From: a virus
Length of the DNA stretch: 25,718 bases
Strand: one strand, 5' to 3'
IMG/VR virus record: IMGVR_UViG_3300050137_000053
Span: 1-25,718 of that record
Shown: positions 4,980 to 19,593 of the stretch, one piece after another
Position numbering within the stretch: the first letter of the stretch is position 1
How the letters are laid out: each line of letters begins with the position of its first letter
The notes under the pieces: model-generated
What the model saw: the letters and a program-made list of their open reading frames with translations, nothing else
Databases searched by the model: none
Told to the model about the DNA's origin: nothing
Made by a program: the position numbers and the translations under genes

Positions 4980-6098
4980 ATGAGCACACCCGCCGTCACC
5001 CCGGAAGCCCCGGCAGTTTCCACCGCGTCGCCCGAACGTGCAACCGTTCGGCAGAGCGAGCACGCCACCATCCCCTCGACCGACAAGCATTATCGTTTGA
5101 CCGGAGAGATGCCGGCAGCGAAGCCCGCTGAAGCAGAGCCGAAGACTGAGACCACTCAAGTTCCGCCAGTGAAAGAGGGAGAATCGGCGACTCCCGGTGC
5201 ATCCGAAATCGCCGCGGGCTCGGAACCCGCGAAACCTCCGCAGAAGACAGCAGCCACCGGCGAAAACCGCTGGGCGAAGATCACTCGCGAAAATCGCGAA
5301 CTGCGCGAACGTCTGGAACGCCTCGAAAAACCTCCTCAGCGTGAAACTCAGCAGGAATCGCAACCTGCGATCGAGGCGAAACCGAAAGCCAATCTCAAGC
5401 CCAAGATCGACGACGTAGACCCGAAAACCAACCAGCCGAAGTTTAAATCCTTTGCCGAATATGAAGAGGCAAAAGATCAGTGGCTAGTGGAAGAGGGCGA
5501 ACGCCGGGCAGTGGAGAAGTTTTCCCAGACCACGCAAGCGAGCGAGCAGGATCGACAAAAGCAGGCGATACAGCAGGGTCTGACCGAGCACGTCACAAAA
5601 CAGCGTGAAGTTCACCCGGACTACGACGCCACCATGGAAGCCGCGTTGGGAACGAAAGAAGCCGACGGCCGTTCTGCGATTTTCTATCAGGACGGCTCGC
5701 ACTTTGATCGTTTCTTTCTCGCGCACCCGGATCGCGGTGTCTCGTTGCTGTACCACCTCGCCAAAAACATTGACGATCCCGCCATTCGAGAGATTTTTGC
5801 GCGCAACCCGCAAGGCACCGATTACAAGCTCGGCCAGATCGAGCAGATTTCGCGCCTCGCCGTGGTTGCGCATAGCGTGGACGCCGCCACAGCGAAACCC
5901 GTGACGAACGTGAACGCTCCGACCGAAATCACTTCTGTGAAACCCGTGACCCAGGCCCCTCGGCCTCCCCACCAAACTTCCGGCAAGGGAGCGGTGGGAA
6001 AAGATCCCGTCGCCGAGGCCCTCGAAACCGGCGACTCCGAGAGCTATATACGCGAAGAAAACCGCCGTGCTCTCGAACGTCGCAAAAAAGGAAAATAA
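4980..6098 (+). CDS. Putative scaffolding protein
   Basis: A 372-residue, highly charged protein directly upstream of the coat gene, the standard place of a scaffold. Scaffolds direct coat assembly into a procapsid and leave before or during packaging. The first 95 residues are Pro/Ala/Thr/Glu-rich and probably disordered. Residues 95-125 form a helix (RWAKITRENRELRERLERLEK). Residues 141-180 carry the segment IDDVDPKT...AEYEEAKDQWL typical of scaffold-like phage proteins. The C-terminal residues 340-372 are basic and helical (IREENRRALERRKKGK), like the coat-binding end of P22 gp8. Usual P22 scaffold length is about 300. There is a good ribosome-binding site (aaggaaaa) and the coat ATG follows the stop immediately. 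A diverged copy of residues 141-176 occurs in the minus-strand gene 17406-17567. Confidence 0.82.
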   Translation: MSTPAVTPEAPAVSTASPERATVRQSEHATIPSTDKHYRLTGEMPAAKPAEAEPKTETTQVPPVKEGESATPGASEIAAGSEPAKPPQKTAATGENRWAKITRENRELRERLERLEKPPQRETQQESQPAIEAKPKANLKPKIDDVDPKTNQPKFKSFAEYEEAKDQWLVEEGERRAVEKFSQTTQASEQDRQKQAIQQGLTEHVTKQREVHPDYDATMEAALGTKEADGRSAIFYQDGSHFDRFFLAHPDRGVSLLYHLAKNIDDPAIREIFARNPQGTDYKLGQIEQISRLAVVAHSVDAATAKPVTNVNAPTEITSVKPVTQAPRPPHQTSGKGAVGKDPVAEALETGDSESYIREENRRALERRKKGK

Positions 6099-14671: not shown

Positions 14672-16327
14672 ATGGGAACCATACCAGCACCCAACGTCTT
14701 TCAAGATTCCGCGGAAATCGCGCAGATGCCGCAGAACGCCATGGCGGAGTACGCCCGCATCGGCGCGCTGAAACAGCAGACCGCGCTCATGCAGCAGCAG
14801 CAGGCGGCGGAACAGCAGCGGATGCAGCAGCAGGGTGCGATGTTTCCGGGGCAACTCAAGGGGCAGCAGCAAACCCTTCAGCAACAGAACATCGCTCTCC
14901 AGCAACAGCAGCTCGATCTTAAGGACCGGCAAGGATTCGCGCAGGTTCTTAGCGATACCTTTCGCCAGCCAGGCGCATCAACCGGAGGCGCAAGCGCGTC
15001 GCCTTCCGCACCGTCAACCGCTCCCCCGCGCACTGTGGTTAGAAATCCTGCGACCGGCGCGCCGGAATTTTCCGATGTGATGGCGCTTCAGCAGCCGACC
15101 GCTCCCGGTCAATCTGGCACAGCGCCTGCTCCTGCTCAATCTTCGACGCCCGCCGCGAGCGCGCCGACTTCCGAGACTCCCGCGCCGACAAATTCGGGTG
15201 ACCGCCTTTCTTCTTTGCTCGACCGCATTCAAGACCCGAAATATGGGATTTCCGCTCAGGGGCAGATGGGATTCCTCAAGCAGTACACCGAAATGCGGAA
15301 AGATGTTGCAGGAGCGGACAAGGCCACACTCGACGCGCACGCCGACGCCAATAAGCAAATATCGCAAGGCTTGCAGGCCGTACTTGAAGCGCCTCCCGAG
15401 GATCAGGCGGCGCAGTATTCACTTGCGGTCAATGCCTTGCGGCGCGATCCAACGATGGCGAAATACGCACAGTCCCTTCCTCCGCAGTATCCCGGCCCGG
15501 CGCAACTGCAAATCTTGAATCACTCGCTGATGCTCGAAAAAGATGTGATTGACGATGTGAAGCAAAAGAATGAAGGGCCGGGGCAAATTGCTCATAGCCA
15601 AGTGGAACAGCAGAACGTAATTCCGGCCGGTGGAGGACTCTCGCCAGCAACCCAGCAGAAAGTTCAACAAGATGTTGCTGTAGCGACCAATCCGCAAATT
15701 CAGGCGGGAAAGGTTGCCGTTGCCACCGCCGAAGGCATAGCCCGCGCCAACATCGAAGCCCAAATTGCGCGGGGCTCGAACGCCGCTCTCGCGATGGTTC
15801 CTCCGCATCTGGTCGCACCCGCCACTGCAGCCGCGACGAAGGCCGGGGAAGATTACGCCCAGGCGCAGTCAGTCAGCCAGCGGTTGCAGGCCATCATGGA
15901 CGACGCGAAGAAAGGCAATGTGGTTTCCTACCAGTTGCTCCCTGAGGAAGGCGCGTTGCAGGTGGTGACGGCTCAAGGCATCCACCGCATCAACATGGCC
16001 GAGATTCAGAATTACGGCGGCGGTTCCTATCTGCAAGCCCTCGAAGGTCACATCGGAAAAGCTCTCAGCGGCAAATCGATCCCCGATTCCGTGCTGAACG
16101 ATATGGGCGACATGCAGAGGATCATGGCGGAAGGCTCGCAGACGAAATACCAGAACACCTTGAGCACGATCAATCAGACTTACGGCTCGAAGTTCCAGCC
16201 AGTGCAGATGGCTCCGATGGCGCGAAATCAGGCGCAGTCGGGCGGGGGGGGCGTTACCGTGGCTGGCTTCACCTTCCCTGACCAGAAATCAGCCGATGCC
16301 TTCAAGAAAGAGGCCGGGATTCCGTAA
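14672..16327 (+). CDS. Ejection-type protein, Gln-rich coiled coil
   Basis: A 551-residue protein in the place of P22 gp20. Residues 30-85 are a Gln-rich helix or coiled coil (QQQQAAEQQRMQQQ). Residues 95-185 are a Pro/Ala/Ser/Thr-rich linker that contains VVRNPATGAPEFSDVM, a motif also found in the next gene. Residues 195 to about 500 are helical with many Ala and Gln. The C-terminus has VTVAGFTFPDQKSADAFKKEAG, a short motif like those at the ends of peptidoglycan-associated and ejection proteins. No lysozyme or transglycosylase active site was seen. A run of eight G at 16244-16251 lies just before the C-terminal motif. Its stop overlaps the next start (TAATG). Role in DNA delivery is inferred from place and composition. 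Confidence 0.75.
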   Translation: MGTIPAPNVFQDSAEIAQMPQNAMAEYARIGALKQQTALMQQQQAAEQQRMQQQGAMFPGQLKGQQQTLQQQNIALQQQQLDLKDRQGFAQVLSDTFRQPGASTGGASASPSAPSTAPPRTVVRNPATGAPEFSDVMALQQPTAPGQSGTAPAPAQSSTPAASAPTSETPAPTNSGDRLSSLLDRIQDPKYGISAQGQMGFLKQYTEMRKDVAGADKATLDAHADANKQISQGLQAVLEAPPEDQAAQYSLAVNALRRDPTMAKYAQSLPPQYPGPAQLQILNHSLMLEKDVIDDVKQKNEGPGQIAHSQVEQQNVIPAGGGLSPATQQKVQQDVAVATNPQIQAGKVAVATAEGIARANIEAQIARGSNAALAMVPPHLVAPATAAATKAGEDYAQAQSVSQRLQAIMDDAKKGNVVSYQLLPEEGALQVVTAQGIHRINMAEIQNYGGGSYLQALEGHIGKALSGKSIPDSVLNDMGDMQRIMAEGSQTKYQNTLSTINQTYGSKFQPVQMAPMARNQAQSGGGGVTVAGFTFPDQKSADAFKKEAGIP

Positions 16328-17394
16328 TGCCTGATCTCAGCGCATTGGCGGCAAAATACGGTGGAACTCCCGCGATGCCACCGGGAACGGATCTTGCCGC
16401 GCTTGCGGCCAAGTACGGAGGCAGGTCAGTTTCCCGGCCCGAAGAAGAAGCTGAAATTCCGAGCACTACCACGGGCTTTGAAGCCTCGGGGCAGATGGCA
16501 CCGAAGAGTGCCGTGGATGCCGGGCTTAAAGCGCAGGCCCTTGGTACGGGAGCAATTTTGGGGGCCGGAATAGGCATTCCGGCCCTTGGCCCTGAAGTTG
16601 GGGCGCTTGCGAGTGCTGCGATTCGTCCGGTTGCGCAACTTGCCGCGAAACATCCGATCATCTCGAATGCAGTAGCGAGCGCCGCGATCTCCCAGGCAAG
16701 GCAGATCCCCTATGTAGGAAAATTGATTCCCCCCGGTGCTGAATTCCTGCCGTGGCTCAGGCGAGTGGGGGGCGCGGGCGAAGAACCAGTGCCGGGAGAA
16801 GAGCCGAGTACATCTCCGTCAGGACCTTCCGCCACTCCGAAGCCCACTGCGCCGTCGCCGCGCACGATTGAGATTGATCCTGCTACCGGACGTCCTGAAT
16901 TTTCCGACGTTATCGTCGCGAAGCCGTCCGCACCAATGGCGAAGCCAGCCGAAGTGCAGCAGGCGCTTGAAACTGCGCTCGGCGGAAAGCCTTTACAGCC
17001 CGGAGTATCGCTGCGCAATCAGCCTGCCGCGCAAGCCATCGCCGCCGGGAAATTGCCGGAGGGGTTTACTCCAGTACAGTCGAGCGTCATCAAGGGCTAC
17101 AAGTACGATCCAGCCGCGCAGGAATTTACCGCGATCACGAACAATGGGCAGACTTATACGCACGGTGAAGTAACTCCTGATCAGGTCGCTGCATTCGAGG
17201 GCGCAGATTCAAAAGGGCGGGCATGGACAGCGGCAATCCGCAACTCAAGTCCGCTTGTGCGGAAAAACGGAGTGCCAGTGAAAACGGCGACGATGCAGAA
17301 CGCAGCGGGCGAAGTGATTCCGAAGAGTGCGGCGGGGATGGATGATCTCACGGATATTTTGCAGCAGTCGCTAAAGAACGCGCAGGGGAAGTGA
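16327..17394 (+). CDS. Ejection-type protein with KTSC-like domain
   Basis: A 355-residue protein overlapping the upstream stop (TAATG). The N-terminus holds two DLxALAAKYGG repeats (residues 3-13 and 22-32). Residues 75-140 form a Gly/Ala-rich hydrophobic region, possibly membrane-active. A Pro/Ser/Thr linker follows, with IEIDPATGRPEFSDVI shared with the upstream gene. Residues about 253-315 (SSVIKGYKYDPAAQEFTAI, then TYTHGEVTPDQVAAF and ADSKGRAW) match the KTSC domain pattern: a Y/D-rich strand pair, a YxxxxVP-like turn and an A.SKG..w helix. KTSC domains are small and of unclear function, sometimes linked to nucleic-acid proteins. This is the gp16 position of P22. Delivery into the host with DNA is an inference. 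Confidence 0.75.
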   Translation: MPDLSALAAKYGGTPAMPPGTDLAALAAKYGGRSVSRPEEEAEIPSTTTGFEASGQMAPKSAVDAGLKAQALGTGAILGAGIGIPALGPEVGALASAAIRPVAQLAAKHPIISNAVASAAISQARQIPYVGKLIPPGAEFLPWLRRVGGAGEEPVPGEEPSTSPSGPSATPKPTAPSPRTIEIDPATGRPEFSDVIVAKPSAPMAKPAEVQQALETALGGKPLQPGVSLRNQPAAQAIAAGKLPEGFTPVQSSVIKGYKYDPAAQEFTAITNNGQTYTHGEVTPDQVAAFEGADSKGRAWTAAIRNSSPLVRKNGVPVKTATMQNAAGEVIPKSAAGMDDLTDILQQSLKNAQGK

Positions 17395-17405
17395 GTGGGG
17401 GAGGG

Positions 17406-17567
17406 CTATTCTTCTGCTGGGTGTAAGGCTTCAAATCTGCGAATAGCTTCTTCGATGAGCCATTCGTCTTTGACTTCCTCATACTCGGCGTAATTTGCGA
17501 ATCTCAGCTTGCCGGTCTTGGGGTCGATGTCATCGATTTGTGGCTTGCGGGTGAGAGTTATGAACAT
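17406..17567 (-). CDS. Scaffold-segment mimic, 53 residues
   Basis: A 53-residue minus-strand gene, ATG at 17565-17567 and TAG at 17406-17408, with a modest ribosome-binding site (agtagggtaaatc). Residues 9-44 match residues 141-176 of the scaffold encoded at 4980-6098 at 22 of 36 positions by hand count: IDDxDPKT, AEYEExKDxWLxEE and a following RR are shared. The DNA has diverged, mainly at third codon positions with some replacement changes. Only this central scaffold piece is present, not the basic C-terminus. It is the last gene of a three-gene minus-strand set, 11 bases after the Rap1a-like gene. It may interfere with or tune scaffold assembly, or be a leftover of a second scaffold. The ORF is clear; its function is speculation. 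Confidence 0.72.
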   Translation of the reverse strand: MFITLTRKPQIDDIDPKTGKLRFANYAEYEEVKDEWLIEEAIRRFEALHPAEE

Positions 17568-17578
17568 GATTTACCCTA

Positions 17579-17983
17579 CTACTGCTCTTTTGCCACGATT
17601 GGCTTTGCCACAGGGGTCGATGTCCACAATCCCACTTCGCCGGTGGCAAGGATGAGTGAGGTAATCGCCCCTTTGTTCAGAACTTCTGGGTGATTGTTTA
17701 CGTATTTTAGAAATACGCGAATGACTTGATCTGCGCTCACGCCGTCTGCCCAGTGGAATTCCGAGATCGTGCCAGTATCTTGAACGGTGGTCCCTTGTGC
17801 CGTTTCGGTGAAAGCAATCACGTATCCAATACAGAAGCCAATCTCGTCAGGGTTGAGCGCGCCGCCTGCGTCGGCGATGACATAGGCATCGCAGTTTGTT
17901 TTAAGTTTGGCTGTTGAGTAAGAGGTAGCCAATGCGCTACTCCAAGCGATGATGCACAGACAACCGACTAGCAAACTTTTCAT
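17579..17983 (-). CDS. Secreted Rap1a/Tai-like protein
   Basis: A 134-residue minus-strand protein with a good ribosome-binding site (aaaggagagaagtc). A Sec signal peptide covers residues 1-19 (cleavage after SSALA). The mature part resembles the Rap1a/Tai immunity-protein family: Cys31 and Cys51 in an FCIGYVIAF motif, then GVSADQVIRVFLKYVNNHPEVL followed by a hydrophobic helix. In Serratia such proteins sit in the periplasm and neutralise amidase effectors of type VI secretion. Two Cys usual in the family (in CxP before GVS and in the final FPC) are absent here, so any disulfide pattern is reduced. Its start overlaps the stop of the zinc-ribbon gene. Base composition appears lower in GC than the flanking virion genes. 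It may protect the infected cell or block peptidoglycan-active entry factors of rival phages; this is inference. Confidence 0.75.
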   Translation of the reverse strand: MKSLLVGCLCIIAWSSALATSYSTAKLKTNCDAYVIADAGGALNPDEIGFCIGYVIAFTETAQGTTVQDTGTISEFHWADGVSADQVIRVFLKYVNNHPEVLNKGAITSLILATGEVGLWTSTPVAKPIVAKEQ

Positions 17984-18090
17984 GACTTCTCTCCTTTGGG
18001 CTTGTAGTCCAACCGACTTTTACAACGTGGGCAAGCTTTGGGGGAGGATTTGCGCGGCGTCCACTGGTAATGGCAATGAGGACATTTCAC
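17980..18090 (-). CDS. Small zinc-ribbon protein, GTG start
   Basis: A 36-residue minus-strand gene. GTG 18090 is the only start, because an in-frame stop lies two codons upstream. It encodes CPHC, a WTPR turn, then CPRC and a basic tail: a compact four-Cys zinc ribbon (Cys3, Cys6, Cys20, Cys23) with the PRK..PKACPRC signature seen in small archaeal and bacterial zinc-ribbon proteins. The stop TGA overlaps the ATG of the Rap1a-like gene (ATGA), so the two are probably translationally coupled. Such ribbons often bind nucleic acid or act as regulators. A promoter on the minus strand would have to lie within 18091-18147. Confidence 0.7.
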   Translation of the reverse strand: MKCPHCHYQWTPRKSSPKACPRCKSRLDYKPKGEKS

Positions 18091-18097
18091 GTCTCAC

Positions 18098-18126
18098 AGA
18101 CTAGCGGTTACTACCACTAGTTGCAA
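18098..18126 (-). promoter_or_regulatory. Weak candidate promoter for the minus-strand set
   Basis: On the minus strand TTGCAA (18121-18126) and TAGTCT (18098-18103) are 17 bases apart, as in a sigma-70-type promoter, but both hexamers match the consensus poorly. It lies in the short divergent gap before the zinc-ribbon gene. If used, the transcript would begin almost at the GTG. Confidence 0.2.
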
Positions 18127-18147
18127 TAGCACGTTTGGGCTACACCC

Positions 18148-19593
18148 ATGATTGACCGAAAAATGACCAACCGCCTCCACGCTCTATTTTTCGTGCTGTG
18201 TGCAATCTTTTGCGCATCCTTCGCCCAGGCCCAGACCGCCGTAGTCGTGTCCCCCTGGCCGCAGTTTGTTTCCTACCTGCAAAACGGCCAACCGAACGCC
18301 TTCGGCTGCGTTTTTACCTACGAAATCGCCTCGACGACGCCACTGTCGACCTACACGGATTTCAGCGGAGCAACCCTGAATGCTAACCCGGTGATCCTCT
18401 CAGCTGGCGGAACAGCGTCGGTGTGGATTGCGGCGGGCGAAGCATATCGCTATGTGATCAAGAGCGCCGGCGGCTTGAACTGCGCTTCTGGGACCACCGT
18501 TTACACCGTCGACGGCATCGGCGGCGGCGGGTCGACCAACGCCACCACGGTGATCACCTACTCCGCCACCCCCAATTTCCCCGTTGCCGCCGAAAATCAG
18601 CTATTTATTCTCACTTTGACCGGGAACGCCTCCGCCCAGCCACTGACCTTCGTCGGCATCACCCCGCCGGCCGAGATCTTCTTTCAGATTATTCAGGATG
18701 CGGTCGGGGGGCGAACTTTCTCCTGGCCGGCGAATTCGGTAGGCGGCTGCGTCATCGGTTCGGCCCCCAATCAGGTCACTACCCTCGAGATGGTCTACGA
18801 CGGCACGAATGCTACCGCAGTAGGCCCGTGCGTGACCGGAAACGGGCCTACAAGCGTCGTTTCCCAGCTAACCAGTACCGTGGCGACCGGAACTCCGCCG
18901 CTTGTAGTGGCTTCCCAGACCGAAGTCACGAATCTCAACGCCAATTCGCTCGAGGGCTATGACTGGGCCAGCCCGGGCACGATCGGCTCGACCGCGCCCA
19001 ACACGGCTGCCGTTACCACTTTGGAAGTCGGCGGCTCGGTTCCGCAAGTCGGGGTCCAGGGCGGCGGATCGGGCGGGGATACGAAACTCTTAGCCGCGGG
19101 GACGACCTCGGTCACTCCGGGAGTGGTTTTCTGTACCGACACGAACGGCGGAGCTACCACAACAGGCTGTAATGCCGCTTTCAACCCGCCGCAAAGGGTT
19201 GAACTCGCCTCCCAGGTGACGCTCGTCTCGACTACCCAGACCATCGTTCTGACTGAAACCGTGACCTTCCCAAGCGGGCCTGGGACCTACCGCGCCGACA
19301 TTCGCTATGGTGCCTGGTTTTCGGCGGCCAACAATGCGTGTGCGGCGGAAGTCATCGACACTACCAACGCGAAAGCCTTCGCGCTCTCCGGGCAGAATTC
19401 CAACGGCTTTGGCTATATGGCGCTCTCGGGATCGGAAATCTCGACGAACACCTACGCGGCCGGCGCCACTCCAACCTTCACTCTACAAGTGCAGTGCAAT
19501 GCCGCGCAGTATGTGACTGTGAATCCCTCGCCTTTCACTTTCTCGCCAGCAGAAGCGACCTATCTTTCCGTGACCCCGGTGCTGAGCAATTAA
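18148..19593 (+). CDS. Tail-fibre-like protein with Sec signal peptide
   Basis: A 481-residue protein. ATG 18148 or 18163 may be the start; both leave a signal peptide with hydrophobic core and an AQA-Q cleavage site near residue 28. The mature N-terminus (GQPNAFGCVFTYEIASTTPLSTYTDFSG, then NANPVILSAGGTASVWI) is the head-binding-type domain seen at the start of many tail fibre and tailspike proteins: a YT..AGTT..ATYTD..G...NP..L...G strand order. This is followed by beta-rich modules with FFQIIQDAVGGRTFSWPA and a C-terminal fold without coiled coil. Having a virion-attachment domain behind a Sec signal is contradictory for ordinary assembly. The next gene starts directly after its stop. Confidence 0.8.
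   Translation: MIDRKMTNRLHALFFVLCAIFCASFAQAQTAVVVSPWPQFVSYLQNGQPNAFGCVFTYEIASTTPLSTYTDFSGATLNANPVILSAGGTASVWIAAGEAYRYVIKSAGGLNCASGTTVYTVDGIGGGGSTNATTVITYSATPNFPVAAENQLFILTLTGNASAQPLTFVGITPPAEIFFQIIQDAVGGRTFSWPANSVGGCVIGSAPNQVTTLEMVYDGTNATAVGPCVTGNGPTSVVSQLTSTVATGTPPLVVASQTEVTNLNANSLEGYDWASPGTIGSTAPNTAAVTTLEVGGSVPQVGVQGGGSGGDTKLLAAGTTSVTPGVVFCTDTNGGATTTGCNAAFNPPQRVELASQVTLVSTTQTIVLTETVTFPSGPGTYRADIRYGAWFSAANNACAAEVIDTTNAKAFALSGQNSNGFGYMALSGSEISTNTYAAGATPTFTLQVQCNAAQYVTVNPSPFTFSPAEATYLSVTPVLSN

Follow-up and report, generated by a model that had tools for sequence, protein, structure and literature searches.

The mimic gene and its cassette

The stretch of DNA analyzed here (the window) is an entire virus record of 25,718 bases, with portal and coat proteins of the P22 type (Pfam 7e-95 and 1e-22). 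Flanked by two plus-strand genes of the virion region lies a minus-strand cassette of ~750 bp, read in the direction opposite to the virion genes, in which a zinc-ribbon ORF is followed by a Rap1a-like gene and then by a small ORF that resembles a piece of the phage's own scaffold, and that we call the mimic. The mimic occupies positions 17406-17567 on the minus strand, with an ATG at 17567 and a TAG ending at 17406, and it encodes 53 aa (MFITLTRKPQIDDIDPKTGKLRFANYAEYEEVKDEWLIEEAIRRFEALHPAEE). Its ribosome site is weak, an AGGG 6 nt 5′ of the ATG. The AF2 model of the monomer is a turn followed by a single helix at residues 26-48 (pLDDT 82.6). Pfam and NCBIfam matches of the mimic to YL1_C and post-PEP-CTERM were dropped, their scores being under the cut-off.

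The cassette is headed by the zinc-ribbon ORF (17980-18090, minus strand; 36 aa, GTG start), which has two CxxC pairs (CPHC...CPRC) and numerous weak Pfam zinc-ribbon matches, none of them above cut-off. It overlaps by 4 nt the gene for a Rap1a-like secreted protein of 134 aa (17579-17983, minus strand; Pfam PF18602, E 5e-7, 30.6 bits vs. a cut-off of 27.7). This protein has a signal-peptide-like N-terminal stretch and its gene an AAAGGAG ribosome site, and it has no close relative in the viral contig or phage collections. The gap between its stop and the ATG of the mimic is 11 nt.

The original prediction had described the ORF as having a start and a stop of its own and as standing in an operon. 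Start and stop are as predicted, and we can add the weak ribosome site and the strand, which is minus. The operon stands as far as gene geometry goes (the 4-nt overlap and the 11-nt gap), but no sigma-70-type promoter was recognized for the cassette, and terminator-like matches are at chance level. From the sequence, we infer that the mimic is a translated gene.

A variable slot between conserved virion genes

On the left, the cassette is bordered by a virion-region gene with a C-terminal KTSC domain (16327-17394, plus strand; Pfam PF13619 6.5e-7), which is 95% identical in L006/L007. On the right, it is bordered by a virion-region gene of 481 aa (18148-19593, plus strand), to which the counterparts in G001/G002 are 93% identical; six further records have a homologue. 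In the slot between them (window 17394-18148; L006, L031-L036), all relatives read have differing opposite-strand genes where the content is known: G001/G002 encode a membrane protein and a protein of ~120 aa, G007/G008 and G010 small secreted proteins, and G014 and G015 proteins that look receiver-domain-like by eye. The slot has no Rfam match. The mimic sits at the position of an accessory gene (a moron), where the content varies and the slot between conserved virion genes is fixed.

The mimic is absent from both nearest relatives, which have a different cassette in the slot. One of these two is G001, where the flanking proteins are 93-98% identical and no free module exists. The original prediction held that absence from close relatives would count against the gene. 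Absent it is, but because the slot is variable in all relatives read, this absence argues for an accessory gene and not for a non-gene. The lineage is probably temperate, since a tyrosine recombinase (integrase) is present in 11 of the 12 relatives tested.

Some minor observations concern the same records. The ends of G001, which is 43.6 kb long and classed as linear, share 126 identical bases (L121:9-134, L122:18969-19094); it is probably a complete circular genome. G020 and G022 encode other Rap1a proteins (L131, L132) close to their early genes, outside the slot. In the window, the adjacent virion-region proteins at 14672-16327 and 16327-17394 share a stretch of ~45 aa that is ~50% identical (NPATGAPEFSDV and IDPATGRPEFSDV), and differ elsewhere.

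The module within the scaffold

The scaffold gene of the window (4980-6098, plus strand) encodes a P22 gp8-like protein of 372 aa (phrog_8865; PHROG 8865 E 2.2e-11). Residues 8-43 of the mimic align to it without gaps at window positions 5394-5510 (plus strand). In a within-genome search, 22 of the 36 residues are identical (E 7.8e-15), as originally predicted, and the BLOSUM62 local score is 138, whereas the highest of 2000 shuffles is 51. On this sequence comparison, it is certain that the mimic is homologous to the scaffold segment. The parental module spans scaffold residues 139-177 and consists, according to tblastn, AF2 and the VIA structural comparison, of a turn and the tip of a long column helix.

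When 18 full-length scaffolds from the lineage are aligned, the module is among the two best-conserved stretches, behind the C-loop and the hook. The mean pairwise identity is 0.65 in the module and 0.44 over the whole scaffold, and it reaches 0.71 in the best stretch of the C-terminal part. Past the module the similarity stops, and the 53 aa of the mimic lack the base domain, the C-loop and the coat-binding hook.

What does this segment do in a scaffold? In P22, the column domain of gp8 comprises residues 85-162, tetramers form via residues 122-136, and the column region bundles scaffold subunits into three- and four-helix arrangements that lie on the portal and above it; contact with the portal is made by the base domain and the C-loop, and contact with the coat by the hook (PMC12005531).

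Three comparisons, in part independent of one another, place the module on that column. A profile of the 18 scaffolds searched against solved structures matches P22 gp8 with a marginal E-value of 0.014, putting the module on gp8 ~102-145 and the conserved scaffold W168 on gp8 W134. (The module alone, in a sequence search of the PDB, gives weak matches to unrelated helices only.) The AF2 model of the scaffold has a disordered N-terminus, a helix at 97-116, the module, a 54-residue helix at 158-211, a helical domain at 215-304, and, after a disordered linker, a hook at 343-371, which is the domain order reported for gp8. In the VIA comparison, the top four entries are all P22 scaffold, with Z of 5.6-6.6 (modest for helical proteins), and the register, model residues 134-300 on gp8 95/98-245, agrees within a few residues with the sequence alignment. 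A Y/F-x2-A/V-x3-W spacing is conserved between the mimic (Y29, V32, W36) and gp8 (F127, A130, W134), inside the tetramer interface.

Each of these signals is modest, yet the profile, the predicted fold and the PDB fold matches together agree. Given the mapping to gp8 ~102-145 and the domain map of gp8, the mimic corresponds to the column tip, with the helix 122-136 through which tetramers form. This fits two earlier expectations, that the segment is distinct from the end that binds coat (as an internal module, it is separate from the hook) and that scaffold-scaffold contacts are its likelier target.

The module elsewhere

The original prediction had also proposed a search for the same ORF in related contigs. 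No other free-standing copy turned up in the collections scanned, which were IMG/VR, GTDB species genomes, annotated phages and plasmids, and the free copy is so far confined to one metagenomic contig. In IMG/VR, the module and patterns derived from it match full-length scaffolds of one lineage and two exonuclease tails, all in contigs that have this scaffold; in GTDB species genomes, annotated phages and plasmids the module was not found in any form. Apparent bacterial matches in Sphingomonas were rejected as an unrelated cellular protein, and exonuclease-tail matches in Rhizobium phage RHph_TM16 and Flavonifractor phage Chenonceau (E 0.5-0.9) look like chance.

The first of the two tails belongs to record IMGVR_UViG_3300025469_000012 (G008), which also encodes the scaffold. 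Its YqaJ exonuclease (L030:2325-3212, plus strand; 295 aa, YqaJ 1.3e-23) has the full module as its last ~55 residues (module E 2.7e-15). The exonuclease of G014 (L071/L116; 52% identical) ends in a diverged module, KPKVEDYSCFDDYDTDKSIWLILESLRL, which matches with E 6e-15 a profile of 15 rows that include this tail itself. The tail is lacking in the exonucleases of G020 and G022, both of which have this scaffold, and in those of L107 and L108, which are more distant. Since the two related exonucleases of G020 and G022 do without the tail, it is not essential. At the level of sequence, the comparison shows a module that was either attached to another protein or lost from it, with boundaries about equal to those of the free copy. 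Because the same module ends the G008 exonuclease, the segment is seen to move as a unit.

The presence of the module on an enzyme without a role in assembly raises the question of whether it serves as a general helix-bundle tag, forming homo-oligomers of its own. The free copy would then self-assemble or partner with other proteins, the tail would stabilize the exonuclease oligomer, and the scaffold would not be the target. Lambda-type exonucleases are trimers, and the equivalent region of P22 gp8 makes both trimers and tetramers. We consider this reading unlikely, though it deserves real weight: the module occurs only in contigs with this scaffold and is absent from the bacterial, plasmid and other phage collections, which favors a partner linked to the scaffold.

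A separate observation concerns the early genes. A stretch of ~120 bp, 83-85% identical in G008, G001 and G020 (L030:3228-3348, L122:18885-19005, L127:3292-3408), lies near them; it has no Rfam match and may be an element for regulation or packaging.

Constraint on the mimic and its origin

Between the mimic and the scaffolds, codon positions 1, 2 and 3 are identical in 28.9, 27.7 and 17.1 of 38 codons, compared with 29.0, 30.0 and 19.8 of 38 for scaffold vs. scaffold. From this codon pattern, constraint on the mimic at the protein level is likely. A segment captured recently from an unsampled scaffold, with no selection on the mimic itself, would give the same pattern. In neutral simulations starting from L009, the frame remains open with at least as many identical residues in 1.3% of runs if half of the third-position changes fall on the mimic branch, and in 28% of runs if a quarter of them do.

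A recent duplication of the window's own scaffold was rejected as the origin. Third codon positions are identical in 15 of 38, and the L009 scaffold is closer than the window's own (27/38 vs. 23/38 residues). In a tree of the 38-residue core, the mimic, on a long end branch, and the G008 exonuclease tail group weakly with scaffolds from a different sub-clade (86/77) than the one that holds the window's own scaffold (99/92). The tree is not decisive, as AU tests do not reject alternative origins of the mimic.

Could the mimic then be a non-functional remnant, a fragment of a scaffold gene that recombined into the variable slot and is open by chance or has not decayed yet? It occurs once, it is short enough for a chance open frame, and the long end branch, the weak grouping with another sub-clade and the undecided AU tests would all suit a fragment of this kind. 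Yet third codon positions have diverged with positions 1 and 2 kept, the ORF has its own start and stop and lies close to the upstream gene, and its homology ends at approximately the same boundaries as in the exonuclease fusion. On balance, a remnant seems improbable to us, if not dismissible.

Proposed function

The reading we prefer, which we give about an even chance, is that the mimic is an accessory peptide of scaffold oligomerization, which inserts into scaffold bundles and caps their growth or poisons them. The moron gene would encode a detached oligomerization module, a short turn plus the tip of the long column helix. Its 53-aa product would most likely insert into scaffold bundles with the column contact present and the base domain, portal loop and coat hook missing, and scaffold growth would end at the point of insertion, because the mimic has the column contact but not the base, C-loop or hook. 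We infer both the binding of the mimic to the scaffold through the column bundle and the capping.

Capping might serve to tune the phage's own assembly or, by means of a swappable cassette and in a lineage that is probably temperate, to spoil the assembly of related phages that share the cell. An anti-competitor role is speculative; we lean weakly toward it because the cassette is swappable and the mimic is closer in similarity to the scaffold of another sub-clade. In an extended version that takes in the exonuclease, the helix would be a portable docking part, acting as a free capping peptide against rival phages and, as a tail, bringing the exonuclease to the assembling head or packaging it there. 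This combination strikes us as distinctly doubtful.

The module could also be a tag that some third party recognizes (a protease, a chaperone or a host protein); scaffold, exonuclease and mimic would have this party in common, and the mimic would titrate it. Its presence on two unrelated proteins of one phage group invites such an idea, but the P22 structure already assigns to this region a scaffold-scaffold role, and we know of no such third-party partner; we regard the tag as very unlikely. Binding of the mimic to the portal with modulation of portal incorporation, the other target named by the original prediction, is extremely unlikely: the P22 portal is indeed recruited by the scaffold (PMC12005531), but the segment belongs to the column domain, and the portal is touched by the base domain and C-loop that the mimic lacks.

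Comparison with known systems

For the preferred capping peptide, the closest functional analogue is CpmB of SaPI1, likewise a small protein that bears a single functional part of a phage scaffold. It is encoded by a satellite, competes with the scaffold of phage 80alpha, and carries a C-terminal coat-binding helix-and-hook along with a dimer domain of its own (PMC5644958). The mimic, in contrast, carries the oligomerization segment without the coat-binding helix-and-hook, and is part of the phage's own genome. Known scaffold mimicry is that of satellites copying the coat-binding end. If our reading is true, a separate gene for the oligomerization segment would offer another means of controlling or sabotaging the assembly of heads, one that acts on scaffold-scaffold contacts.

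Like other morons, the cassette is swappable, on the opposite strand and foreign to its neighbors; unlike them, it includes a gene homologous to the phage's own assembly protein. Among YqaJ/lambda-type exonucleases (PF09588), the module is a C-terminal addition in G008 and G014 that the others compared do not have, and the fusion shows the segment to be self-contained and movable.

With P22 gp8, the window's scaffold has the domain order in common, and the module lies on the gp8 column, including 122-136. In P22 the segment is described only within gp8, whereas the window has it as a free gene too, and relatives have it as the tail of an exonuclease. The mimic would be a natural minimal peptide, with which the function of the P22 column helix becomes directly testable. 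In one scaffold of the lineage (L115, 947-2098), a second, partial copy of the module loop (DIDPATGKPKYPDSP) occurs farther downstream.
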